DNA of 64,000 nt from Flavobacterium sp. AED. Its GTDB lineage: Bacteria; Bacteroidota; Bacteroidia; Flavobacteriales; Flavobacteriaceae. The translations under genes and the position numbers were made by a program. Shown one piece after another: positions 3,535 to 56,518 of the stretch (its first letter is position 1; each line of letters begins with the position of its first letter). The stretch covers positions 248,001-312,000 of the forward strand of contig NZ_JSYM01000002.1 in assembly GCF_000812945.1 (NCBI RefSeq). The letters run 5' to 3'. Below the pieces are notes generated by a model, which was not told the origin of the DNA, did not search any database, and saw only the letters and a program-made list of their open reading frames with translations.

Positions 3535-6500
3535 ATGATAAACAAAAATCAAATCAGTCTGAGGGAAGACAAAGTTTTAGATTTGAAATCAAATTCAATC
3601 TTGCCTGAGGCAGATAATAATGATTTTCCAATTATTGGTATTGGAGCTTCTGCCGGAGGTCTTGAAGCATTAGAATTATTTTTTGAAAAAATGCCAAATA
3701 ACAGTGGTATGGCATTTGTGGTCATTCAACATCTCGATCCTACACATGTTGGGATAATGCCTGAGTTGCTTCAAAGAATGACACAAATGAAGGTTTTACA
3801 AGCAACTGATACACTCAAAGTAAAACCAAATTCAGTTTATGTAATTCCACCTAATAAAAGTTTGTCAATTCTAAAAGGGAAACTGCATTTGTTTGAACCA
3901 CTTGAATCTAGAGGTTTACGATTACCGATTGATGTTTTTTTCCGCTCTTTGGCTCTGGACCGAAAGGAAAAAAGTATTGGAATCATTTTTTCTGGAATGG
4001 GATCTGATGGCAGCGATGGATTAAAAGTGATTAAAGAAAATAATGGATTTGTACTTGTTCAAGAACCTGCTTCGGCAAAATTTGATAGTATGCCACGAAA
4101 CGCAATTGAAGCTGTAATTCCTGATATTGTTGCTCCTGCGGAAGAATTACCTGCTAAACTGATTGCGTTATTAAAATATTTTCCAAAGATAAATACAGAT
4201 TCTGAGGTATATGTTAAAAGCAAAAGTAGCATCGATAAAATTATCATTTTGCTACGTGAACAATCCGGACATGATTTTTCGATGTATAAAAAAAATACAT
4301 TGATGCGTCGTATAGAAAGAAGAAAAGCAATTCATCAGATCGATACTATTCAAACGTATGTCCGTTTTTTGCAAGAAAATCCAAAAGAGGTTGAATTACT
4401 TTTTAAAGAATTATTAATTGGTGTAACCAGTTTTTTTAGAGATACGGCTGTTTGGGAAAAACTCAAAGAGGAAATTATTCCTAATTTGTTGAAAGAAATA
4501 CCGAATGGTTATACTATTCGAGCTTGGGTTCCAGCTTGCTCAACAGGAGAGGAAGCCTATTCTTTGGCAATAATTTTTGAAGAAGTTATAGAAAAAATAG
4601 GAAGGCATAAAAATATTAAACTCCAGATTTTTGCCACTGACTTAGATATAGTTGCTATAGAAAAAGCTAGAAAAGGGTTCTTTTTATCTGATATAGAAAA
4701 AGAGGTGTCTCCAGAGCGAATTAATAATTTTTTTTATATTGAAAAATCAGGTTATCGTGTGAATACTTCCATTCGAGAAATGATTGTATTTGCCCCTCAT
4801 GATGTAATAAAAGATCCTCCTTTTACTAAATTAGACCTATTGACTTGCCGAAATATGTTGATATATATGGAGCCACAATTGCAAAATAAATTAATAATGT
4901 TGTTTAATTATAGTCTGAATCCAGGAGGGATTATGGTACTGGGAACAGCAGAGACTATAGGAAGCAGTATTAAAGGATTTGATATAATTGATTCTAAATT
5001 AAAAATTTTTAAGCGAACTTCGAAATCGGTAATTCCTGAATTTACTAATTTTCCAAGTTCTTTTTCCCAAATTAAAAGATTAACTACTGATATAATGAAA
5101 GAAACTAAGGTTGTTGAAAACATACAAATCCTTGCAGATCAAATTTTGCTTCAGCGTTTTTCACCTGCAAGCATATTAGTTAATGATAAAGGAGATATTA
5201 TTTATATTACGGGTAGAACGGGAAAATATTTAGAGCCTGTAGCTGGTAAAGCAAATTGGAATATACATGCAATGGCTCGTGAAGGATTGAGAAATGAGCT
5301 ACCTGCTGCTTTTCGTAAAGCATTGCAAAGCTTTGATCCTGTAAAAATCGAAAATGTAAAAATAGTTGAAAACGGGAGTAAATATTTTGTAAATTTAACG
5401 CTCCAACAAATTGAAAGTCCGGATGCTTTAAAAGGGATGATTATGTTGGTATTCAGTGATGTGCCTGAAATTTTGGAGTCAGATGTAAATGCTTTAAAAG
5501 AAAAAAAACAAAGTGTTTCCGGTAAACAAAAAGAATTAGAAGCTGAGCTTATACGTTGTAAAGAAGATTTGAACAGTACTCGCGAAGAGATGCAAACCTC
5601 ACAAGAAGAACTGAAATCGACTAATGAAGAATTACAATCGACAAATGAGGAACTACAATCAACTAATGAAGAACTAACAACATCCAAAGAAGAGTTACAA
5701 AGTTTAAATGAAGAATTGCAAACAGTTAATGCAGAACTTCAAAGTAAATTAGTTGATTTTGAACAGGCAAACAATGACATGAAAAACCTGCTCAATAGCA
5801 CTGAAATAGCTACTCTTTTTTTGGATAAGGAATTAAATATACGCAGATTTACGGATCCGGTAACTAAAATATTTAAATTAAGAGCAACGGACACGGGAAG
5901 ACCTTTCACAGATTTAGTTTGTGATTTGAATTACCCGGATATGGGAAGTAACGCATTAGGAGTAATTAGGACATTATCTTCTATTCAAAAAGAAGTTGCA
6001 ACTAATGATGGCCGTTATTATTACGTAAGGATAATGCCTTATCGTACTTTGGATGACCGAATTGACGGGCTTGTGATTACTTTCACAGATATTACAATAG
6101 CAAAACAAGCCGAAGAATCACTAAAAATAGAAAATCGGTACCGTCGTCTCTTTGAATCAGCAAAAGATGGAATTCTGATTCTTAATTCAGAAACGGGGAT
6201 GATTATGGATGTTAATCCTTATTTAGTTGAAATGTTAGGTTATACACATGATCAATTTATTGAAAAATCTATTTGGGAAATAGGTTCTTTGAAAGATATA
6301 GTGGCCAATAAAGATAAATTTTTAGAATTACAGAAGAAGGAATTTGTCCGGTATGAAAACTTACCGCTTGAAACGGCTAAGGGGAAAAAAATAAATGTTG
6401 AGTTTGTAAGTAATGTATTCTTAGTAAATAATATAAAAGTGATACAATGTATTATTCGTGATATTTCTGATCGTGTGATAGTTCAAGACGCATTAGTCAC

Positions 6501-6855
6501 TTTAGAAAATAGGTTTAGGCATCTTTTTGAATCTGTAAAAGAAGGGATTTTATTTCTGGATTCTGAAACCGGAAGGATAGCGGATATAAACCCATATTCT
6601 ACTGATTTGTTAGGTTTATCAAAAGAAAAATGTATTGGAAAAGAAATTTGGCAAATTGAATCTTTGAAAAATATTATTCCGAATATGGAAAAATTCAAAG
6701 AATTAAATAAAAAGGAATTTATTCATTATCATGCTATTGAAATTGAAATAGGGGATGCAAGAAAAATAAAAATTGATTTTACCAGTACAGTTTATCGTGT
6801 AGGAAGTAAAAAGGTAATTCAATGTTTTATTCACGAAATTCCAAGTTTAAACTAA
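3535..6855 (+). CDS. CheB-CheR fusion with coiled coil and PAS domains
   Basis: A fusion of chemotaxis-type methylesterase and methyltransferase, of the kind found in signalling proteins unrelated to flagella. The CheB part (residues ~30-215) has the catalytic Ser in GASAGG (residue 39), a His in IQHLDP (66) and an Asp in GMGSDG. The CheR part (~225-490) has the SAM-binding VPACSTGEEAYSLA and the LLTCRNMLIYM motif. A strongly repetitive coiled coil of EEL-type heptads (~650-740) leads to three PAS-like modules. No kinase or receiver domain is present. I chose the ATG at 3535; a GTG directly before it is also possible. It lies between two paralogous hybrid kinases, so all three probably serve one pathway. 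Substrates are unknown. Confidence 0.93.
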   Translation: MINKNQISLREDKVLDLKSNSILPEADNNDFPIIGIGASAGGLEALELFFEKMPNNSGMAFVVIQHLDPTHVGIMPELLQRMTQMKVLQATDTLKVKPNSVYVIPPNKSLSILKGKLHLFEPLESRGLRLPIDVFFRSLALDRKEKSIGIIFSGMGSDGSDGLKVIKENNGFVLVQEPASAKFDSMPRNAIEAVIPDIVAPAEELPAKLIALLKYFPKINTDSEVYVKSKSSIDKIIILLREQSGHDFSMYKKNTLMRRIERRKAIHQIDTIQTYVRFLQENPKEVELLFKELLIGVTSFFRDTAVWEKLKEEIIPNLLKEIPNGYTIRAWVPACSTGEEAYSLAIIFEEVIEKIGRHKNIKLQIFATDLDIVAIEKARKGFFLSDIEKEVSPERINNFFYIEKSGYRVNTSIREMIVFAPHDVIKDPPFTKLDLLTCRNMLIYMEPQLQNKLIMLFNYSLNPGGIMVLGTAETIGSSIKGFDIIDSKLKIFKRTSKSVIPEFTNFPSSFSQIKRLTTDIMKETKVVENIQILADQILLQRFSPASILVNDKGDIIYITGRTGKYLEPVAGKANWNIHAMAREGLRNELPAAFRKALQSFDPVKIENVKIVENGSKYFVNLTLQQIESPDALKGMIMLVFSDVPEILESDVNALKEKKQSVSGKQKELEAELIRCKEDLNSTREEMQTSQEELKSTNEELQSTNEELQSTNEELTTSKEELQSLNEELQTVNAELQSKLVDFEQANNDMKNLLNSTEIATLFLDKELNIRRFTDPVTKIFKLRATDTGRPFTDLVCDLNYPDMGSNALGVIRTLSSIQKEVATNDGRYYYVRIMPYRTLDDRIDGLVITFTDITIAKQAEESLKIENRYRRLFESAKDGILILNSETGMIMDVNPYLVEMLGYTHDQFIEKSIWEIGSLKDIVANKDKFLELQKKEFVRYENLPLETAKGKKINVEFVSNVFLVNNIKVIQCIIRDISDRVIVQDALVTLENRFRHLFESVKEGILFLDSETGRIADINPYSTDLLGLSKEKCIGKEIWQIESLKNIIPNMEKFKELNKKEFIHYHAIEIEIGDARKIKIDFTSTVYRVGSKKVIQCFIHEIPSLN

Positions 6856-6926
6856 AAGAGAGAAATAAAAAAGTTTACGATTAATAGTTTTCTAATTCTA
6901 TATAGTACAAAAGGCAATATTTAACA

Positions 6927-9083
6927 ATGTTGGGAATTATGAGAAAAACAGAAAATACATCAGAAGCCATGGTAATTCTTCGAGAAAAAGCGGAGGAATT
7001 GCAAAAAAAGAAAGACTTAAAGTTAGATTCAAATCTTTCTGAGGCTGATACGTTAAAACTCATTCATGAATTTGAAGTGCATCAGATTGAACTTGAAATG
7101 CAGAATGAAGAATTGATACTTGCTAAAGAACAGGCAGAAGTTGCTATTGAAAAATATACAGATTTATACGATTTTGCACCATCGGGCTATTTTACATTAA
7201 CAAAAACAGGGAAAATAACAACACTTAACCTAACGGGATCCCAAATGTTAGGCAAAGATAGGTCTCGATTAATAGGCAGCCAGTTTGGATTTTTTGTTTC
7301 TAATGATACAAAACCTGTTTTTAATCTTTTTTTAGAGAATGTATTTAATAGTACTGTTAAAGAATGCTGTGAAATTAAATTATTATTAGGAAGTACTTGT
7401 ATTACGGATGTTTATTTAACTGGTATAGTGACCGAAGACAGGGAACTTGCACTTATTTCTGTTGCCGATATTACGCAACTTAAATTAGCGGAATCAGCAC
7501 TTAAGGACAGTGAAGAGAGGTATCGTGGATTATTAAATAATATTGATGTTGGTATTATTGTTCATGCTCCAGATACTTCTATTATTTTATCTAATCCTAA
7601 GGCATCTGAATTGATAGGTTTGAGTACCAATCAAATGAAGGGAAAAGTGGCAATTAATCCGGTATGGAGATTTATTGATGAAAATTATAATCCTTTACCA
7701 ATTGAAAATTATCCTGTAAGCCAGATTATTAGCCAGAAAAAAGCAATCAAAAATTTTATCATGGGGATTAAAAGACCTGATAATACCAGAACAATATGGC
7801 TTTTATTAAATGGATTTCCCGTTTTTGATTTTCATGGTGAAATAACGGAAGTGGTTACCAGTTTTATTGAGATTACGGAAATGAAAATATTGGAAATTGA
7901 GTTGACAAAAGCAAAAGATCAAGCTGAAGCAGCCAATAAAGCAAAGTCAAATTTTCTCATGAATATGAGCCATGAAATTAGAACACCATTGAACGGAATA
8001 ATAGGTTTTACTGATTTGTTAATGAAGTCAAACCTTGACGAAAATCAGTTAGAATACATGAATACGGTAAAAGAGTCGGCAACAATATTAGCTGATATAG
8101 TAAACAATATTTTAGATTTTTCGAAAATTGAATCAGGAAAGTTAGAATTAAATATAGAAGAAATTGATCTCTTTGAACTGACTCATCAAGTTATAGATCT
8201 TTTTAAATATCAAGCAACTTTGAAAAATATTGATTTAGCTTTAAATATTGATGAAAATGTACCTCACTATGTATTTGCTGATTCCGTACGATTGAAACAG
8301 ATATTAGTAAATTTAATTGGCAATGCATTAAAATTCACAAAAGCAGGCCAAATTCACTTAAATATTTATAATAAATCCAATACCATAAAAAATAAAGCAG
8401 CGATAAATTTTTCTGTAAAAGATACAGGAATTGGGATAAAACATCAAAATCAAGAAAAAATATTCCAGTCTTTTGTGCAGGAGGATAATTCAATAACACG
8501 TCAATTTGGGGGAACTGGTCTTGGATTAACAATCTCAAATCAACTTTTAGGTCTAATGAACAGTAAATTAGAATTAATTAGTAATTATGGTCATGGAAGT
8601 GATTTTTTCTTTACCATTGAGCTTGAAAAGTCAAAACACGAAATAGAATTAAGCGATATTGAAAATAATTTAAAAGCAGAAAATGAAATTTCTTCCAGTG
8701 AAATTTTAAAGACTACTAAAATATTGATTGTTGAGGATAATAATATTAATTTACTTTTGATAAAAACCCTTCTAAAAAAAATAGTTCCTAATTGTATAAT
8801 ATTTGAAGCTTCTAATGGAATTGAAGGAATAAAATTATTTAAAAAAGAGGAACTGGATCTTATTTTAATGGACATACAAATGCCAATAAAAAATGGATAT
8901 GAAACAACTGCTGAAATCAGAAAATTAAAAAAAGCAAAAAATATTCCGATAATTGCCTTAACAGCTGGAATGTTATTAGGAGAAAAAGAAAAATGTTTAG
9001 AATCAGGAATGAATGATTATATTTCTAAACCAATAGTTAAATCAAATTTAGAATTAATTCTGCACAAATGGTTGGATAAATAA
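6927..9083 (+). CDS. PAS hybrid sensor histidine kinase with receiver
   Basis: A soluble hybrid kinase of 718 residues. An N-terminal charged helix ([18 protein letters not shown]) precedes two PAS modules (~75-185 and ~190-320). A HisKA domain (phospho-His 349 in [11 protein letters not shown]), a HATPase domain ([20 protein letters not shown]) and a receiver (phospho-Asp 649 in ILMDIQMP) follow. It looks like a shorter copy of the first kinase in the window: the second PAS ([13 protein letters not shown] versus [13 protein letters not shown]) and the whole kinase core match almost residue for residue. The gene starts 71 bases after the CheB-CheR fusion, so co-transcription is likely. A second ATG at 6939 is an alternative start. 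The stimulus and output partner are not evident. Confidence 0.93.
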
Positions 9084-48688: not shown

Positions 48689-48786
48689 AAAAAATGTTTT
48701 GAAAGATTGTGCCAAATTCTCATTTACCTTTTCACAATTCATTTACGGCATTAAATTTCAATTAAATAATTCAAATTTTAAGAATA

Positions 48787-48830
48787 TTAGAAAACTTCAT
48801 GTAGAACAAATTCTACATGAAGTTTTCTAA
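48787..48830. repeat. Perfect 20-base inverted repeat
   Basis: Two perfect 20-base arms around the loop CAAA, starting TTAGAAAACTTC and ending GAAGTTTTCTAA. It contains the GTAGAA-N4-TTCTAC dyad at its centre. As RNA it would be a very stable hairpin and may end the PUL transcript, though no T-run follows. Confidence 0.7.
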
Positions 48831-48868
48831 TGTTCTACAGTATGTTATTTTTAAGCTAGTTATTTTTG
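48801..48868 (+). promoter_or_regulatory. GTAGAA/TTCTAC promoter before the kinase-LuxR genes
   Basis: GTAGAA-CAAA-TTCTAC (48801-48816), 16 bases, a third half-site TTCTAC (48833-48838), 22 bases, then TATTTTTG (48861-48868), a TAnnTTTG -7 box. The same order and spacing is found at 51706-51773. The kinase start follows about 195 bases after the box; nothing else was found in the 48689-49064 gap. Confidence 0.68.
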
Positions 48869-49064
48869 TAGTCAATTATTTTGTATAAAGGAAAAAATAA
48901 ATACAAATTTCAGCGTAAAATGAATGGTATTGAAATATGTTTTTTGTGTTTTTATTAATTAAAAATATTATATTTATGTAATCTCTATCTTAAAAACACT
49001 AAATATAATTTCTGAGTTGGGATTTTATCTTAACTCATTTTTTTATTTAAATAAACAATAAATT

Positions 49065-50816
49065 TTGATTAGAAAATACTTTATATCGAATACCTTTTTA
49101 TCGAAAAGATTAAAATTTGAACATAGGAAAGTTGCTCATTACACCTTGTTGACATGCGTTATTTTTTTGCAGGTTATAGTCGTTATAATTTGGTATAATG
49201 AAACAGCAAATGAAACTAAAGTTTCAAAAGCTTTTGATGATATATCGTCTTCAAATAAAATAGCAAAATTTACAAATAAGGTAAATAATTCTCTTCTTAA
49301 CTCTCAAGAACACTTCAATAATTACATTAATTATAAAGATGAGGTTTCGTTAAAAAAATATTTGGTTTCATTGCATGAAATGAGTTCCTTGATTGACAGC
49401 CTTAATATGGTTGCTAAAGATAATAAGGACTTTAAAAAGATATTGATTAAAAAAAATAATGCTGAGACAGATATTTTTGCTTTAAAAATGTCAATTGATT
49501 CCATTATTGACAAACAAATTAGCCCAAATCACGACGATGTTTCCAAGCTTTTTAAATTTAATAAGTTCGGATTCAAAAAAATATTGGATAGTATTAAAAC
49601 GGACACTTACATGAAGGTGGATAGTGTTTCTCGAAAAGGATTGATTTCAAGATTAGGAGATGCGTTTACGGGAAGATATAGGGTGCAAAAAGAGCAGTTA
49701 AATACGGTTGTCACTATGCAATATAAGGATAAAGTTTTATCTGGTAGTATAGAAGAGCAAATAGCAAATGCATTTTTGACAACCAACAAATATTACGAAA
49801 ATGAATTTAATAACTTGAAAAAGTCGTTTTTAAGTCTAAGAAATAAAGACTTGAATTTAATTGCACTTAATAATGAATTATTAAATTTAGGTCAAAATGT
49901 ATTGCCAAATTACAGTAATTCTGCAAATTTACTTCAAACAGATGGCCAAAAGGATTTATTAAATCAATATCAATCAAATAAAACAGTTAGAAATTATACC
50001 ATAATAATACTGATAGTATTAATGTTTATTATCTCAATTATACTTTTGAGTTTTACACGCTTGGCGTTTGAGTATGAAAAAAGATTAACCATTGCCCAAA
50101 ATCAAATACGTCAAAGTTTGAATTTTAAAAATAGGATTATGGGTATGATAAGCCATGAAATTAGGTCACCGTTAAATATAATATCTATTTATAGCAAAAA
50201 AGTAAGTGCTTCAGTTAAAGATATTGAGATAAAAGATACTTTTAAATCAATTCAGTTTACTACAAATTCATTACTTCTTTTGGCGAATCAAATCTTAGAA
50301 TATTCTAAAGATGAAAATCATAAACCTAAATTAAAAAATAAAAATTTTCATTTAAAAACAGAAATAGATCAAATAATCTCCGCTATGACTTCATTAGTGA
50401 AGACTAAAGAAAATAAAATAAAAGTAAATTCTAATTTAAATTCAGATTCGGAAGTATATTCAGATGCGACAAAAATTCATCAACTCTTTTACAATATAAT
50501 CGGGAATGCTAATAAGTTTACCACAAAGGGATTAATAGCGATTACTATTGATTTAGAGCCTATTTCGGATTACGAAATGAATTTAAAAGTTGAAGTTCAG
50601 GATAATGGAATTGGTATTGCAGAAAATGATTTGAAAAATATATTCGAATCCTATTATCAAGGAACAGTCTCTGAAAAAGTTAATGATTTAGGTGTTGGTT
50701 TAGGACTAAATCTTTGCAAAGAAATAGTTGAATTATTTGATGGGGATATTAGTGTTGAAAGTCAAGAAGGTAAAGGTACTAAGATCACATTTAATTTGAT
50801 ATTAAGTCACATTTAA
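49065..50816 (+). CDS. Membrane sensor histidine kinase
   Basis: A 583-residue inner-membrane kinase. Two membrane helices (~28-47 and ~313-333) frame a ~265-residue periplasmic helical sensor domain (NKIAKFTNKVNNSLLNSQEHFNNY and similar), of no named family. The cytoplasmic part has HisKA with phospho-His 364 in MISHEIRSPLNI, and a HATPase with NIIGNANKFT, DNGIGI and GVGLGLNLCKE. The first Met in frame is far inside, so a TTG at 49065 is the likely start. The LuxR-type regulator gene begins 106 bases downstream, so the pair should form one two-component system. Its promoter region carries the TTCTAC motif, suggesting autoregulation. Confidence 0.9.
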   Translation: MIRKYFISNTFLSKRLKFEHRKVAHYTLLTCVIFLQVIVVIIWYNETANETKVSKAFDDISSSNKIAKFTNKVNNSLLNSQEHFNNYINYKDEVSLKKYLVSLHEMSSLIDSLNMVAKDNKDFKKILIKKNNAETDIFALKMSIDSIIDKQISPNHDDVSKLFKFNKFGFKKILDSIKTDTYMKVDSVSRKGLISRLGDAFTGRYRVQKEQLNTVVTMQYKDKVLSGSIEEQIANAFLTTNKYYENEFNNLKKSFLSLRNKDLNLIALNNELLNLGQNVLPNYSNSANLLQTDGQKDLLNQYQSNKTVRNYTIIILIVLMFIISIILLSFTRLAFEYEKRLTIAQNQIRQSLNFKNRIMGMISHEIRSPLNIISIYSKKVSASVKDIEIKDTFKSIQFTTNSLLLLANQILEYSKDENHKPKLKNKNFHLKTEIDQIISAMTSLVKTKENKIKVNSNLNSDSEVYSDATKIHQLFYNIIGNANKFTTKGLIAITIDLEPISDYEMNLKVEVQDNGIGIAENDLKNIFESYYQGTVSEKVNDLGVGLGLNLCKEIVELFDGDISVESQEGKGTKITFNLILSHI

Positions 50817-50922
50817 AATAGAAACACGAAAATTTTATTTTTTATTTTAAGTAGTAATGGTAAACTATTTGATAATTTATTACCGCACTTATGCATAACG
50901 ATTTTAATTTATTTAATAAAAA

Positions 50923-51573
50923 ATGAAATTATCAAATAACTATTCTTTTTTAATTGCGGATGACCATAGTGTTGTTAGGCAAGGTGTTGCATTGCTAATT
51001 AAAGAGTTGTTTTTAAATGCTAAAATTAGTCAGTCCGGGACTTTTAAAGATACTTTTGAAGTATTAAAAGATACTAAGATTGATTTACTGGTTTTAGATA
51101 TCAATTTTCCGGACGGTAATAGTTTGAATATTATTACTGAGATTAAAAATATTCAACCGGATATTAAAATTTTAATATTTTCGGCCTACGATGAAGACAT
51201 TTATGCCATGCGATACTTGAATGCAGGTGCTTCGGGATATTTAAATAAAGGCAGCTCAGAAGAAGAGATGAAGCAAGCATTAACCAGCATGATTTTATCA
51301 GGAAAATATATAACGCAAAATATTAAAGATAGAATTCTAGACTCTTATATTTCAAAAACACCCATTAATCCATTAGAACAATTGTCTAATAGAGAAGTAG
51401 AGGTTGCCAGATTATTGATTAAAGGATATGGAAATTTAGAAATATCAGAGCTATTGAAAATTAAAAAGACCACCGTTAGTACGTTTAAAAACAGAGTTTT
51501 TGAAAAGCTGGAAATTGATAATTTACCTGCTTTAATAGAACTTTTTCACTTATACTTTGAGGATAGTAAATAG
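50923..51573 (+). CDS. LuxR/NarL-type response regulator
   Basis: A 216-residue transcription factor. The receiver domain (~5-125) has the acidic pair in IADDHSVVR, phospho-Asp 59 in LLVLDINFPDG and a Lys in YLNKGS. The C-terminal domain (~145-210) is a LuxR-type helix-turn-helix (LSNREVEVARLLIKGYGNLEISELLKIKKTTVSTFKNRVF). It is the presumed partner of the kinase just before it. A long perfect terminator follows. It is the best candidate to bind the GTAGAA-N4-TTCTAC dyads that stand before its own kinase gene and again before the next genes; that is inference from position and symmetry. Confidence 0.93.
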   Translation: MKLSNNYSFLIADDHSVVRQGVALLIKELFLNAKISQSGTFKDTFEVLKDTKIDLLVLDINFPDGNSLNIITEIKNIQPDIKILIFSAYDEDIYAMRYLNAGASGYLNKGSSEEEMKQALTSMILSGKYITQNIKDRILDSYISKTPINPLEQLSNREVEVARLLIKGYGNLEISELLKIKKTTVSTFKNRVFEKLEIDNLPALIELFHLYFEDSK

Positions 51574-51616
51574 TTTATAGTTGCTGTTTTTCAAAATCTG
51601 CTTTTTTTATTACCAT

Positions 51617-51664
51617 AATTCAATAACTACTTATTTTATCCAATAGTAGTTATTGAATTTTTTA
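51617..51664 (+). terminator. Intrinsic terminator after the LuxR-type gene
   Basis: Perfect 15-base arms AATTCAATAACTACT and AGTAGTTATTGAATT around a 13-base loop, with a T-rich tail. Confidence 0.85.
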
Positions 51665-51705
51665 TTTACTACATAAAATTATTCTTACTACCAGGTATTT
51701 TTTTT

Positions 51706-51773
51706 GTAGAAATAATTCTACACGGCATTGTTAGATATTCTACGAACTATTGATTTTGTTGGGGTTACATTTG
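51706..51773 (+). promoter_or_regulatory. GTAGAA/TTCTAC promoter before the small membrane protein cluster
   Basis: GTAGAA-ATAA-TTCTAC (51706-51721), 16 bases, TTCTAC (51738-51743), 22 bases, TACATTTG (51766-51773). Every distance equals the promoter at 48801-48868, while the intervening bases differ. It would transcribe the genes from 51924 or 52025 onwards. Confidence 0.68.
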
Positions 51774-51923
51774 CAATATCAGAAGTGGTAGTTGCAGTAA
51801 CCTCTGATTTTATTGAGGTGTTTTGAAATAATAATTAGCAAGTTTATTAGCAGATTTTAATTCATACAATTACAGAAAGCATGAAGTGGTGGTAATTTAT
51901 AAAGTCTAAAAAAATACAAAAAA

Positions 51924-52040
51924 ATGAATGAAAAAACTATTGGAAGTTATATTCTAATAATCCGTTGGTTAGTGTCTTTTGTTTTGGATAATTATAATTT
52001 ACGTTGTTTAATTCAAAATAATAAATGTATCAAAAAGTAA
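51924..52040 (+). CDS. Possible 38-residue peptide upstream of the small membrane protein
   Basis: An ATG-started frame of 38 codons (MNEKTIGSYILIIRWLVSFV...) lies just after the TTCTAC promoter and overlaps the start of the next gene by 16 bases. It has one hydrophobic stretch. It may be a translated leader or chance; no family recognised. Confidence 0.25.
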   Translation: MNEKTIGSYILIIRWLVSFVLDNYNLRCLIQNNKCIKK

Positions 52041-52348
52041 TTTTTGGATTGTTTTTTTGCCTAGTTGGAATACTTTGTATTGATTTTGTTTCTGATTTAT
52101 TTGTAATGGGTTTTACGTATTATTTACTGTCTCTATTTTTTTTGGGATTAGGAATTGTAGTTTATCCGTTGGATTTTAAGTTTAGGTTCAAAACCGATTT
52201 TATGTTTCTTCCGCTGATAGGGTTAGCTATGGCCAACTTTATAAATTTGTTTTTTTTTGCTGATTTTTCATTGAAAATAAATTGCGTTAATATACTAGCA
52301 GGGATAGGTGGGGTTTTATTGGGTGTCTTTCGGAAAAAGATTAAGTAG
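52025..52348 (+). CDS. Small integral membrane protein, unknown function
   Basis: A 107-residue protein made almost wholly of four hydrophobic helices (about residues 3-22, 28-47, 56-78 and 87-103), ending in a basic tail (RKKIK). I recognise no family. It is the first clear gene after the GTAGAA/TTCTAC promoter at 51706-51773 and is followed by a PAS kinase 105 bases later. It could be part of an envelope response controlled by the kinase and LuxR-type regulator before it. Confidence 0.6.
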   Translation: MYQKVIFGLFFCLVGILCIDFVSDLFVMGFTYYLLSLFFLGLGIVVYPLDFKFRFKTDFMFLPLIGLAMANFINLFFFADFSLKINCVNILAGIGGVLLGVFRKKIK

Positions 52349-52453
52349 AGGAGAAAATTTTTCCATTTAATCGGAGCTATTAAAATATTTCATTTTAAAA
52401 AGATTGATTGTAATTTTTTTGTGGTGATTGGAACTTTTTAAAACTAAAAAAAT

Positions 52454-53968
52454 ATGAAATCTGATTTTTATAATACAGATGATTCTATGCATACAAGTGA
52501 TTTTTATAAAAAATTATTTAAAGAATTATCTGAAAAAATTTTCGTGTTTACGGTTTCTTCAGACAATCATTTTCATAGTCCATTAGTGAGTGAATCGATA
52601 TGTGAGATGTTCGAATTGTCAAATAATATTATTTCAGATACTATTATGTCTTTTTTTTATAATAGTATCTATAAGGACGATAAAATTAAAGTACTGCGTT
52701 TTCTTATCGGTTCCAGAAAGATTGAAAAAAAAGGAGATTTAGAATTTAGAAGTGTATTACCTAAAAGAGGATTGTGTTGGTTTAAGGTGTTTTTTAAAAC
52801 AGAATTGCATTCAGATGGGAGTATTGTTTTTTTGGGGAATGTTTTAGATATAACAGATTTTAAAGTGCAACAGTTGCAACTTGAAATCTCGGATAGACGT
52901 TTTCGTTTTGCAATGGAAGCTTCAACATCAGGTGTTTGGGATTGGGACTTGCAAACAAATAGCGTTTTTTATTCCTCACAATCTTTAAAAATATTAGAAC
53001 AAGAATCTACAGATATTTTTGATAATCCGGAACGATGGGATCAGATTGTACATCCGGATGATTTAAAAAAATATTATGCTACGATTCAAAATCATTTTGA
53101 AAATAAAACTCCATTTTATGAAAATTTGCATCGTGTTTTAACGTCAAGTGGAAAATACAAATGGATTCTTGACAGAGGAAAAGTCATAGAAAGAAGCCCT
53201 GATGGGAAGCCCTTAAGAGTAATAGGGACCCATACAGATATTTCTTCGCAGAAGGAAAAAGAATTAGAATTAATCAGCGCAATGGAATTATACAGCGAAC
53301 ACAATAGTCGGTTATTGAATTTTTCCCATACCGTTTCCCATAATTTAAATTCACATGCTGGAAATATTAAATTGCTGCTGGACATGATTGATTTAGAAGA
53401 AAATTCTCTTGAGAATACAGAAACTTTAGGGTATTTAAGAACTGTTTCTGATGATTTGAATGAAACAATAGCTAATTTATCCCAAATAGTGAATATTCAG
53501 AATAATTTGAATGTCATAAAAGAGCCTTTGGATTTGAATCTGTATTTGAAAAAAAACAGCAACATAATTAGTGGTTATAACCATGAAAATAAAGCGAGAA
53601 TTATAAATAATGTTGCTAAGGGAGCTATTGTCACTTTTAATCCTGCTTATCTGGAAAGTGTTTTGTTGAATTTTAGTACAAATGCAATAAAATATGCACA
53701 TCCCGATAGATTTCCGATAATTGAGTTTAATTTTTTTGTAGAAAATGAAAAGAAAGTATTAACCATAACGGATAACGGTTTAGGGATTGATTTAGAAAAA
53801 TATGGGGATTTATTATTTGGGATGTACAAAACATTTCATACCCATGAAAAGGCCCATGGAATAGGTTTATATATTGCAAAAAACCAAATTGAATCTATGA
53901 ATGGCAAAGTAAGTGTAGAGAGTAAAGTAGGAGTAGGAACTACTTTTAAAATTATTTTTAGTGACTGA
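52454..53968 (+). CDS. Soluble PAS-domain histidine kinase
   Basis: A 504-residue kinase with no membrane helix. Two PAS modules occupy residues ~15-140 and ~150-275 (the second with GVWDWDLQTNSVFYS and FGTHTDIS-like closing motif GTHTDISSQKE). The dimerisation domain is of the variant type with SHTVSHNLNSHAGNI; His292 or His296 is the likely phospho-acceptor. The HATPase has NFSTNAIKYAHP, DNGLGI and KAHGIGLYIAKNQIE. No receiver or output domain is attached and no regulator gene follows, so its partner is elsewhere or may be the LuxR-type regulator upstream. Confidence 0.9.
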   Translation: MKSDFYNTDDSMHTSDFYKKLFKELSEKIFVFTVSSDNHFHSPLVSESICEMFELSNNIISDTIMSFFYNSIYKDDKIKVLRFLIGSRKIEKKGDLEFRSVLPKRGLCWFKVFFKTELHSDGSIVFLGNVLDITDFKVQQLQLEISDRRFRFAMEASTSGVWDWDLQTNSVFYSSQSLKILEQESTDIFDNPERWDQIVHPDDLKKYYATIQNHFENKTPFYENLHRVLTSSGKYKWILDRGKVIERSPDGKPLRVIGTHTDISSQKEKELELISAMELYSEHNSRLLNFSHTVSHNLNSHAGNIKLLLDMIDLEENSLENTETLGYLRTVSDDLNETIANLSQIVNIQNNLNVIKEPLDLNLYLKKNSNIISGYNHENKARIINNVAKGAIVTFNPAYLESVLLNFSTNAIKYAHPDRFPIIEFNFFVENEKKVLTITDNGLGIDLEKYGDLLFGMYKTFHTHEKAHGIGLYIAKNQIESMNGKVSVESKVGVGTTFKIIFSD

Positions 53969-54016
53969 ATAATAATTAAATCAGAAATAAATAACATAAA
54001 AACGATTAATGTTAAA

Positions 54017-54349
54017 ATGGAAAAATTTGTAATTAGCAAAAAAGCAACTGGCGAGTTTCAATTTGATTTTATAGATAAGAAAGGAAATATACTTCTTAGG
54101 AGTGGAAGTTACACAAGAAAAACGATGTGTATAAACGGTATCGAATCCGTAAAACGCAACTCACAGGATAACTCAAAGTTTAATCGCAAAAGATCTCCAA
54201 ATGACGAACCTTATTTTAACCTGAAATCCTTCAACGGAAAAATTCTAGGAATAAGTCAAATCTTTGAAGATAAATCTTCGCGAGATAACAGTATTGAATC
54301 CCTAAAAAGTAAAGCGCTAGATGCACCCATTGAAGATCAATCAAAGTGA
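54017..54349 (+). CDS. DUF1508 (YegP-like) protein, first copy
   Basis: A 110-residue soluble protein made of two DUF1508/YegP-type repeats. Each has a beta-rich start (KFVISKKATGEFQFDFIDKKGN; PYFNLKSFNGKILGISQIFED) and an NGIESVKRNSQD-like helix. The second copy at 54885 is nearly the same over its whole length (NSQD(N/D)SKF, PYFNLK). DUF1508 function is not established. The gene lies 48 bases after the PAS kinase. The small receiver-like gene separates it from its twin. Confidence 0.85.
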   Translation: MEKFVISKKATGEFQFDFIDKKGNILLRSGSYTRKTMCINGIESVKRNSQDNSKFNRKRSPNDEPYFNLKSFNGKILGISQIFEDKSSRDNSIESLKSKALDAPIEDQSK

Positions 54350-54471
54350 TCATTATCCAATGAAATTTATTATAATGAAACGGAGTATAAATTGATTTTA
54401 ATCAAATTATTCGGGGATAATTGTAAAAAGAGGTTAAGGTAGAATTTATACCAAATTAAATAAATTCGATC

Positions 54472-54882
54472 ATGATAAATAGGACGTTAGAGCAAATTTT
54501 GGTTTATGATAAACAACATTATTTTGCCAGATTTTTAAAATATGAATTTAATAAAAATTTTGATTTTCAAAAGTTTAAAAAGAATGAGAACTTAAATGAC
54601 ATAGAAAAGAAGTTTTCAATCGTTGTTTTTGTGGTGTATTCAGAAGCAGATTTATTTGATTTTGTTGAAGTGTATAAAATGGGAGTTCAAATCTTAGTAT
54701 GTACTTATAATAAAGAAATATTGAACAAAATGAAAAATGTAAGTAATATAATTTTATTTGATATCTCAATAACAAAATTAGAAATGGTAAAGGAATTGCG
54801 TCATTTTTTTTACCGAACCACATCTCCACATAAACAAATTCAAAATAGTAAAAACATAAAAAACTTAAAACAATCAATTTAA
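54472..54882 (+). CDS. Small receiver-like protein lacking a clear phospho-Asp
   Basis: A 136-residue protein of unknown function. The alternation of hydrophobic strands (ILVYDK, FSIVVFVVYS, VQILVCTYN, NIILFDIS) and helices resembles a two-component receiver domain. The strand that should end in the phospho-accepting Asp ends in VVFVVYSEADLF, and the N-terminal acidic pair is reduced to one Asp. It is therefore either a degenerate receiver or an unrelated alpha/beta fold. It ends 2 bases before the second DUF1508 gene. The low-GC, Lys/Asn-rich tail is disordered. Confidence 0.6.
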   Translation: MINRTLEQILVYDKQHYFARFLKYEFNKNFDFQKFKKNENLNDIEKKFSIVVFVVYSEADLFDFVEVYKMGVQILVCTYNKEILNKMKNVSNIILFDISITKLEMVKELRHFFYRTTSPHKQIQNSKNIKNLKQSI

Positions 54883-54884
54883 AA

Positions 54885-55217
54885 ATGGGAAAATTTGTAA
54901 TTACCAAAAGAACAAACGGGGAGTTTCAGTTCAATTTAACAGCCAATAATGGTCAAACAATTCTTAGCAGTGAAGGTTACACGACAAAACCTAATTGTGA
55001 AAAAGGAATTGAATCTGTGAAGCGTAATTCACAGGATGATTCAAAGTTTGATTGCAAAATAGCTTCAAATGGTAAGCCTTATTTTAATCTGAAAGCTACC
55101 AATGGTCAAATAATCGGCACAAGTCAGCTATATGAGAGCGAAGCTTCACGTGATAATGGAATTGCATCCGTAAAAACGAATGCTCCTGAAGCAATTATTG
55201 ATGACAGGACAAATTAA
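54885..55217 (+). CDS. DUF1508 (YegP-like) protein, second copy
   Basis: A 110-residue tandem DUF1508 protein, closely matching the gene at 54017 (KFVI.K...GEFQF, GIESVKRNSQDDSKF, PYFNLKATNGQIIG.SQ). Repeat 1 spans ~1-50 and repeat 2 ~55-105. The differences are spread along the protein, so the duplication is not very recent. It starts 2 bases after the receiver-like gene, so both are translated from one transcript. Function unknown. Confidence 0.87.
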   Translation: MGKFVITKRTNGEFQFNLTANNGQTILSSEGYTTKPNCEKGIESVKRNSQDDSKFDCKIASNGKPYFNLKATNGQIIGTSQLYESEASRDNGIASVKTNAPEAIIDDRTN

Positions 55218-55327
55218 TCAAATAATGAAAAAGCACATTTCAATTCTTGATTTGTGTACTAACATATCTATTTTCAATAAAGCAATGCTATGTTTTGTTG
55301 AATTTTAATTTATTAAATTTTAAATGC

Positions 55328-55804
55328 ATGAAGAAAATCATTTTATTATGTGCTGTCTCTTTTTTGATAGTTGCATGTAAGTCAACCTCAGTTACAAATG
55401 CAAAATTAGACAGACCTTCTCAAGTTGCAATGAAAGGGAATTGGGAAATCACTAATGTTATTTATCCCGGCTCAGACTATATTAAAGTTAATTCGTTTGA
55501 TCTTGCTGATTCAAAATGCTTTGAAGGAAGCCAATGGAAATTTATTTCGAATAACAACAAAGGGAATATGACATTGAATAGCCCTAATTGTACCGCTTAT
55601 AGTTCAGCTATAACTTGGTTTGTAAATAAAGAAGGACAGTTTGTTATGAAGATTTTAGATGAAGGTTTAAAATCAAAAAAAGTGAGAACTGGATTTGTTT
55701 TAGGTATTGCTAATCAGTCTGAAAACTCTTTTCAGTTAATTGATAAAATAGCTGTTGGAGAAAAACTCACTGATGTTGTTTATCAATTTAAAAAAATTAA
55801 CTAA
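55328..55804 (+). CDS. Lipocalin-like lipoprotein
   Basis: A 158-residue lipoprotein. The signal peptide MKKIILLCAVSFLIVAC ends in a lipobox with the acylated Cys at 17. The rest looks like a small beta-barrel of the lipocalin-like type common in Bacteroidota (MKGNWEITNVIYPGS near the start of the barrel, GSQWKFISNNNKGNM, LIDKIAVGEKLTDVVYQFKKI at the end). It sits 18 bases before the OmpA-family gene, the common arrangement in flavobacteria. The ATG at 55328 is chosen because it begins the lipoprotein signal. Confidence 0.85.
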   Translation: MKKIILLCAVSFLIVACKSTSVTNAKLDRPSQVAMKGNWEITNVIYPGSDYIKVNSFDLADSKCFEGSQWKFISNNNKGNMTLNSPNCTAYSSAITWFVNKEGQFVMKILDEGLKSKKVRTGFVLGIANQSENSFQLIDKIAVGEKLTDVVYQFKKIN

Positions 55805-55822
55805 TAAAAAAACATACGTATT

Positions 55823-56518
55823 ATGAAAAAAATAGCCATTCTAAGTTTAAGTGTCTTGTTTGTTGTAAGCAGCCTTTTTACAAGTTGCGATGCGGTTAAA
55901 AATGCTAATAATACTCAAAAAGGTACTGGAATTGGTGTTGCAGCAGGAGCATTAATCGGTGGGATTCTAGGTAATAATTTAGGAAAAGGTGGTAATGCTG
56001 CTTTGGGAGCGGCTATTGGTGCTGCAGTTGGTGGAGGAACAGGCGCTCTTATTGGAAATAAAATGGATAAGCAAGCCAGAGAAATTGATCAAGCTTTGCC
56101 AGGTGCCGATGTAGAAAGAGTAGGTGAAGGAATTCACTTGACTTTGAAAGAGGATGCTGTTCGCTTTGATACTAATAAAACGACTTTAACCATTCAAGCT
56201 AAAGCTAATTTAGATAAATTGATTCCTGTATTTAATAGTTATGCGGATACAAATATTGAGATTTTTGGTTATACTGATAATACAGGTAAACCAGAATATA
56301 ATTTGACACTTTCTCAAAAAAGAGCAGTATCAGTTAAGGATTATTTGGTTTTAAAAGGGTTAAAAACAAGTAGATTCAAAACGTCTGGTTTTGGAATTGC
56401 GGATCCAATTGCTACTAATGATACACCGGAAGGCAGAAGTCAAAACCGCCGTGTAGAATTTGCAATTACCGCAAATGATAAAATGGTTCAGGATTCTAAA
56501 AAAGAAACGGGCAATTAA
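55823..56518 (+). CDS. OmpA-family lipoprotein with glycine zipper
   Basis: A 231-residue outer-membrane lipoprotein. After a signal peptide ending in SLFTSC, a glycine-zipper region (GTGIGVAAGALIGGILGNN, AALGAAIGAAVGGGTGALIG; residues ~33-80) can insert in a membrane. An OmpA domain follows (~105-220) with FDTNKTTL, the peptidoglycan-binding GYTDNTG and LSQKRAVSVKDYLVLKG, and ends with SQNRRVEFAI. It should anchor the outer membrane to peptidoglycan. It is the last gene of the cluster that starts at 52025 and ends at a bidirectional terminator. Confidence 0.93.
   Translation: MKKIAILSLSVLFVVSSLFTSCDAVKNANNTQKGTGIGVAAGALIGGILGNNLGKGGNAALGAAIGAAVGGGTGALIGNKMDKQAREIDQALPGADVERVGEGIHLTLKEDAVRFDTNKTTLTIQAKANLDKLIPVFNSYADTNIEIFGYTDNTGKPEYNLTLSQKRAVSVKDYLVLKGLKTSRFKTSGFGIADPIATNDTPEGRSQNRRVEFAITANDKMVQDSKKETGN

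Follow-up and report, generated by a model that had tools for sequence, protein, structure and literature searches.

A rigidly spaced putative operator-promoter motif that accompanies a NarL/FixJ-type response regulator in Flavobacterium

A stretch of 64,000 nucleotides from Flavobacterium sp. AED (assembly GCF_000812945.1, contig NZ_JSYM01000002.1, forward-strand positions 248,001-312,000), here called the window, carries two copies of an inverted-repeat, predicted promoter motif that flank a gene pair for a histidine kinase and a NarL/FixJ-type response regulator. The motif reads GTAGAA-N4-TTCTAC-N16-TTCTAC-N22-TAnnTTTG and is conserved beside the regulator gene in many related species. Judged from this association, it is very probably the binding site of the regulator encoded at 50923-51573. 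We further consider it likely that the motif is an operator-promoter module by which this regulator activates both the kinase-regulator operon to which it belongs and the envelope operon at 52025-56518. The motif elements and the gene pair are arranged as follows.

48801-48816, plus strand: copy 1 dyad GTAGAACAAATTCTAC upstream of the kinase gene, predicted regulator dimer site at about -72 to -57 (direct reading)
48833-48838, plus strand: copy 1 third half-site TTCTAC, 16 bases past the dyad, at about -40 to -35 (direct reading)
48861-48868, plus strand: copy 1 -7 element TATTTTTG, 22 bases past the half-site, predicted start near 48873 (direct reading)
49065-50816, plus strand: histidine kinase (HisKA, HATPase_c), 583 amino acids, TTG start (open reading frame call, Pfam)
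50923-51573, plus strand: NarL/FixJ-type response regulator (receiver and GerE/LuxR-type helix-turn-helix), 216 amino acids, proposed binder (Pfam, structure match, co-occurrence with the site)
51706-51721, plus strand: copy 2 dyad GTAGAAATAATTCTAC downstream of the regulator gene (direct reading)
51738-51743, plus strand: copy 2 third half-site TTCTAC, 16 bases past the dyad (direct reading)
51766-51773, plus strand: copy 2 -7 element TACATTTG, 22 bases past the half-site, predicted start near 51778 (direct reading)

The dyad of copy 1 consists of GTAGAA (48801-48806), the spacer CAAA and TTCTAC (48811-48816), that of copy 2 of GTAGAA (51706-51711), the spacer ATAA and TTCTAC (51716-51721). 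All spacings are identical in the two copies and the intervening bases are different; the identically spaced pair at 48801-48868 and 51706-51773, as given in a preliminary description of this DNA, proved correct to the base. Both TATTTTTG and TACATTTG fit the TAnnTTTG box of flavobacterial sigma-A promoters. Copy 1 is at the same time the centre of a longer inverted repeat (48781-48836, arms of 26 nucleotides, 96% complementary), which thus places a mirror-image half-site on its left. Examination of the gene calls against Pfam showed kinase and regulator genes as neighbours on one strand with 106 bases between them, the arrangement of a two-component system. The regulator matched PF00072 with 72.3 bits and PF00196 with 52.6 bits, each above its cut-off, in the architecture of the NarL/FixJ type. 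Aligned to VraR, its receiver contains the acidic pair, the phosphoacceptor aspartate and the conserved lysine (ADDH, LVLDINF and YLNKGSS), and the recognition helix is conserved in 45 homologues.

In the complete assembly (3,925,153 bases on 15 contigs), the 18-base core GTAGAA-N4-TTCTAC-N16-TTCTAC matched exactly only at the two window copies, and the core read backwards had no match with up to one mismatch. With up to three mismatches the numbers were about equal (11 real and 9 reversed), so only near-exact matches are informative. The number of exact matches expected from base composition, 0.0003 per genome, is a post hoc value, the pattern having been derived from the pair itself; conservation in relatives is therefore the real test, and the motif passed it. 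The dyad alone has three exact matches in this genome. The third (C1:1279149) was ruled out as a further site; it lies within a large coding gene and is not followed by a third half-site. Within the window, the dyad at up to two mismatches was found 4 times against 2.66 expected, no excess over chance, so the information is carried by the full layout. When the two TTCTACA half-sites were combined with TAnnTTTG and up to three mismatches were allowed, the genome gave the copies with 0 and 1 mismatch, a single further place with 3, and no match for the control.

Searching genome contigs for the regulator yielded 59 loci, of which 49 were taken (L016-L064: 6 from Chryseobacterium and 43 others, nearly all Flavobacterium by title), the ten distant loci L065-L074 being omitted. 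In the 38 close loci, where regulator identity is 71% or higher, we counted sense-strand matches with no more than 2 mismatches in 18 that lay up to 550 bases upstream of the kinase or up to 800 bases downstream of the regulator. A site was present upstream of the kinase in 26 of 33 assessable loci and downstream of the regulator in 30 of 36, so the dyads are conserved in the relatives to which the preliminary description had looked for comparison. These loci include close relatives, and the counts are not independent events. The reversed pattern occurred nowhere in the 38 loci, and nine additional matches lay elsewhere in them. Of the loci without a kinase-side match, seven in all, L028 has a perfect site barely past the limit; weaker versions exist in L016, L023 and L062, and a version with a 17-base gap in L039. 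No kinase-side site was seen in L041 and L043. The six regulator-side misses are L033, L037, L039, L041, L048 and L053, the first four with weaker or shifted versions.

The geometry of the motif was assessed with every perfect dyad in the fetched loci (L001-L015 and L065-L074 omitted), 98 distinct dyads taken in both directions without demanding any downstream element. Within 75 bases, TTCTAC followed 35 times at offset +16 and 4 times at any other offset. TAnnTTTG followed at offsets 43, 44 and 45 in 10, 66 and 2 cases, together 78. The other 14 boxes lay at different offsets, and three of them, at 54-55, are displaced downstream by about one helical turn. When 105 site contexts were picked by the core alone, a box with at most one of six bases wrong lay at distance 21-23 in 87, with 67 perfect boxes at 22. 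The 87 contexts gave the consensus TGTAGAA-N2-AA-TTCTACA-N15-TTCTACA-N21-TAnnTTTG, in which the flanking T (97%) and A (90% and 86%) were absent from the search pattern. Because close relatives are among them, the contexts are likewise not independent. Matches elsewhere were rare and the spacing was fixed, not free, in contrast to the many freely spaced random hits that would have spoken against the preliminary description. In L114 and L112 two near-complete dyads stand 23 bp apart, which suggests that the third half-site may be the remaining half of a second dimer site that has decayed. Long flanking arms of at least 8 further paired bases, differing in sequence, surround 5 of the 98 dyads, including those in L018, L027 and L079.

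According to start mapping in F. psychrophilum as presented in PMC9723704, promoters share the consensus TAnnTTTG with the -7 box at -12 to -5. With the boxes of the window so placed, the dyad would lie at about -72 to -57, the third half-site at about -40 to -35 and the starts 5 bases past the box. The preliminary description had put the last half-site at the position of a -33 element; it is indeed close to it, but its span from about -40 to -35 is just upstream of -33. This place, together with the strict distance to the box, fits an activator in required contact with RNA polymerase. The predicted leaders reach about 190-250 bases upstream of the first called gene (48874-49064 and 51779-52024), and leaders of 150-400 bases are seen in several relatives too.

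The proposed mechanism starts with phosphorylation of the regulator by the neighbouring kinase. A regulator dimer would bind the dyad TGTAGAA-N4-TTCTACA, centred at about -64.5, and a second dimer, held chiefly by its promoter-side half, would occupy TTCTACA two helical turns downstream at about -40 to -35. Beside the would-be -33 element, this second dimer would aid RNA polymerase in starting from the TAnnTTTG box 22 bp further on, so that an active kinase would cause the regulator to turn on its own operon and the envelope operon at 52025-56518. Binding, its dependence on phosphorylation, activation in preference to repression, the start sites and co-transcription of each operon are all predictions of this mechanism.

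Across genomes, the site co-occurs with the regulator. In 61 Flavobacterium genomes the pattern (up to one mismatch) was present in 6, the same 6 in which the best match to the regulator reaches 58% identity or more (Fisher p 1.8e-8, uncorrected for relatedness and with the 58% threshold seen afterwards). In 219 Flavobacterium genomes, these 61 included, the pattern was present in 28, the regulator (E-value at most 1e-60) in 40 and both in 22; the reversed pattern was present in 9. When the genomes were grouped by regulator identity, the pattern occurred in 18 of the 21 at 69% or above, in 4 of the 19 at 48-58% and in 6 of the 179 with no match that reached the cut-off. The three exceptions in the first class (G153, G175 and G177) have weaker versions upstream of the kinase. 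Among the pattern-positive genomes below the cut-off, G062 and G201 have a regulator of 44-49% identity beside the site and G164 has one of 47% (E-value 1.5e-60, barely past the cut-off) elsewhere on the contig. The match in G061 and one of two in G178 were discounted as sites, being located inside genes.

More distant regulators were covered by 36 loci, some species maybe twice, in which the half-site gap could vary from 15 to 18 and a -7 box was demanded. Twenty sites were found in 16 of these loci and none in 1.03 Mb of control; the gap was 17 in 8 of the sites and the box distance 22 in 18. L117, L118, L120 and L121 keep the site although their kinase gene, of about 1000 codons, runs convergently to the regulator gene; the L121 kinase, the one of these four scanned, has HATPase_c and a whole-protein score for the Reg_prop propeller. 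That the site follows the regulator and remains where the kinase differs favours the LuxR-type regulator as the natural candidate binder, as the preliminary description had proposed. In L130 (G062, 5835-8349) a kinase 63% identical to the window kinase has a site upstream and is convergent to a regulator only 44% identical, a pair that seems rearranged. The regulator frame at G120:C4:37005-37631 has one TAA stop and adjoins a site with a changed dyad; it is possibly a decaying copy.

In a family-wide set of 159 genomes, with roughly one per genus for 158 genera, the regulator was found at an E-value of at most 1e-48 only in the genome studied here and in G312, so the system with the exact code is largely a Flavobacterium feature. 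G312 (44% identity) has a three-mismatch layout right after the regulator gene, without a box, which is suggestive only. In the Chryseobacterium loci, with regulators 40-48% identical, the Flavobacterium-type site was absent in five of six and weak versions only were found in the sixth. In two of these loci (L058, 6723-6760; L060, 6693-6730), GTAGAT-N4-ATCTAC-N16-ATCTA(A/T), the same layout with an altered half-site, stands right after the regulator gene with no clear -7 box. L061 has a different dyad of the same layout upstream of the regulator, which may be chance. Among the 45 homologues no fit between recognition-helix residues and motif changes was drawn, the variants being too few.

The second motif copy precedes a cluster of genes, all on the plus strand, which the preliminary description had placed under control of the regulator.

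52025-52348, plus strand: hydrophobic protein of 107 amino acids, no family, first called gene of the target cluster (open reading frame call, Pfam; relative in L017)
52454-53968, plus strand: PAS_3/HATPase_c kinase, 504 amino acids (Pfam)
54017-54349, plus strand: DUF1508 protein (Pfam)
54472-54882, plus strand: protein of 136 amino acids, no Pfam family, receiver-like predicted fold (open reading frame call, structure prediction)
54885-55217, plus strand: second DUF1508 protein (Pfam)
55247-55804, plus strand: lipocalin-like protein, Lipocalin_4 at 22.1 bits, slightly below the cut-off of 22.4 (Pfam)
55823-56518, plus strand: YiaD-family glycine-zipper/OmpA lipoprotein (Pfam)

In this genome the sites precede the kinase-regulator pair and this cluster. 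Relatives of its PAS kinase and DUF1508 genes lie downstream of the regulator in 27 and 26 of the 38 close loci, respectively. Relatives of the lipocalin-OmpA pair, at 69-70% identity, are located on another contig in G148, the OmpA gene behind the lipocalin gene, with their own copy of the core (one mismatch; box at 33, not 22). This relocated pair with its own site provides independent support for control of the envelope cluster. The product of 54472-54882 is predicted to adopt a receiver-like alternating fold (mean predicted local distance difference test score 82.6), with the VicR receiver as best solved match (E-value 7e-4, template modelling score about 0.55). An invariant tyrosine replaces the usual phosphoacceptor aspartate following the third strand, and the protein is possibly a pseudo-receiver. 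A short gene of this kind lies immediately upstream of the kinase in L043.

Elsewhere the site stands before large genes: in L044 before one for a collagen-like protein (whole-protein score; SclB-like, below the cut-off), in L120 and L136 before those of DUF11-repeat proteins and in L112, with a gap of 17, before that of an HYR-like repeat protein. Further sites precede a Ppx/GppA-like gene (L131) and an outer-membrane beta-barrel gene (L141). A protein of 1682 amino acids in L113 was left unclassified, having only scattered repeat-type matches. In L043, L048 and L141 the regulator or a site has PorP/SprF-family genes as neighbours. In L043 and L141 the neighbours include OmpA genes akin to the CHU_0125 family, though scoring below its cut-off, and in L043 also a gene with a type B sorting domain. 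Type B proteins are, according to PMC9143113, anchored via PorP-like proteins. At the start of the PorP/SprF or type B modules of L043, L048 and L141 no site was seen, so only their position as neighbours connects the system with type IX secretion. The large target genes are cut off by the ends of the loci before their C-terminal parts. In other species the regulator may also activate the giant surface-type proteins.

Several observations weigh against the proposed activation by this regulator. Only the two sites flanking the pair were found in the genome of Flavobacterium sp. AED, so the regulon here may be no larger than the locus, and the relocated pair of G148 has its TAnnTTTG at 33 instead of 22. 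In 15 of the 19 genomes with a regulator of 48-58% identity there was no match at one mismatch, and 20 of the 36 distant loci, all six Chryseobacterium loci among them, had no recognisable site. Two genomes without a close regulator have good intergenic sites: that of G096 (L128, 8696) lies before a gene like 54472-54882, and that of G178 (L129, 9770) is an orphan with no kinase or regulator gene after it. Both may be remnants following loss of the kinase-regulator pair. These two sites could also be explained if another transcription factor travelling with the system bound the motif, the co-occurrence with the regulator being a correlation. However, no other helix-turn-helix gene was seen in the compared clusters (a survey short of every regulator in every genome), and the regulator persists when the kinase and neighbours change, which makes another factor very improbable.

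A different alternative accepts the regulator as binder and assigns it chiefly repression, with occupancy of -40 to -35 blocking RNA polymerase until the signal relieves it. Negative autocontrol is common and a site near the -33 region could block, but the -7 box keeps a distance of 21-23 in 87 of 105 contexts, which fits a required contact better than a block. Moreover, shifted boxes are mostly about one helical turn off (32-33), and inspection by eye revealed no obvious good -33 element beside the half-site in the common post-regulator class. We consider predominant repression unlikely, yet more plausible than another factor. Least credible, close to negligible, is an origin of the repeats by chance, as a terminator hairpin or as a small mobile repeat without any regulator. 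In favour of such an origin, copy 1 is the core of the 26-nucleotide, 96% complementary inverted repeat described above; against it speak the conservation with fixed spacing to the promoter box, the rarity of long flanking arms (5 of 98 dyads) and the different bases between the elements of the two copies.

Compared with solved NarL/FixJ regulators, the window regulator has the same receiver and GerE-type helix-turn-helix over its full length as VraR, EvgA, DevR and NarL, the best matches being VraR (E-value 9e-18) and EvgA (E-value 2e-17). None of them is an orthologue, and all named NCBIfam models scored far below their cut-offs. Members of the NarL/FixJ family bind inverted half-sites as dimers; operator and -7 spacing differ here from theirs. 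The partner kinases of NarL-type regulators are often of the HisKA_3 type, whereas the one here is of the HisKA type. RcsB, EvgA and BvgA likewise have a VSTYK-type recognition helix and half-sites in which TTC and TA are frequent. Their operators differ from the motif in sequence, orientation and spacing. The passages of PMC4222967 and PMC6298664 that were searched for these operators yielded no usable consensus. Flavobacterial sigma-A promoters share TAnnTTTG with the motif, in which, however, a predicted activator-type operator at fixed distance occupies the place of a -33 element. The main text of PMC9723704 mentions neither a palindrome nor LuxR. Modules of the type IX secretion system with type B C-terminal domains or PorP/SprF proteins, near the regulator or site in L043, L048 and L141, are not represented among the called genes of the window cluster. 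As the preliminary description had surmised, neither the motif nor such a regulon was found described among the papers listed in searches of open-licence literature. We rate the system, from its sequence features, as a probable autoregulated two-component regulon, a known kind, with an unusually rigid promoter geometry.

To our knowledge, few regulator binding sites have been described in Flavobacteria. In this system the sequence gives regulator, predicted operator, promoter geometry and likely targets at once, and the hard spacing makes the prediction easily testable. Activation of the two operons by this regulator, if true, would show how an envelope operon is turned on in these bacteria, as are very large surface proteins in many of the species; the motif could then serve to map the same control elsewhere. 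A wider proposal, to which we give even credence, is that of a surface-remodelling regulon of Flavobacterium in which a NarL-type regulator kept a near-invariant operator-promoter code while its kinase (a small HisKA or a large propeller-type sensor) and its targets were exchanged. Among the genes so controlled would be those for giant secreted repeat proteins of the collagen-like, DUF11 and HYR kinds, for proteins of the outer membrane and of OmpA type, and for a second PAS kinase together with a receiver-like protein that might act back on signalling. If this is true, the code would be a direct route to the genes for surface-protein control in the genus.

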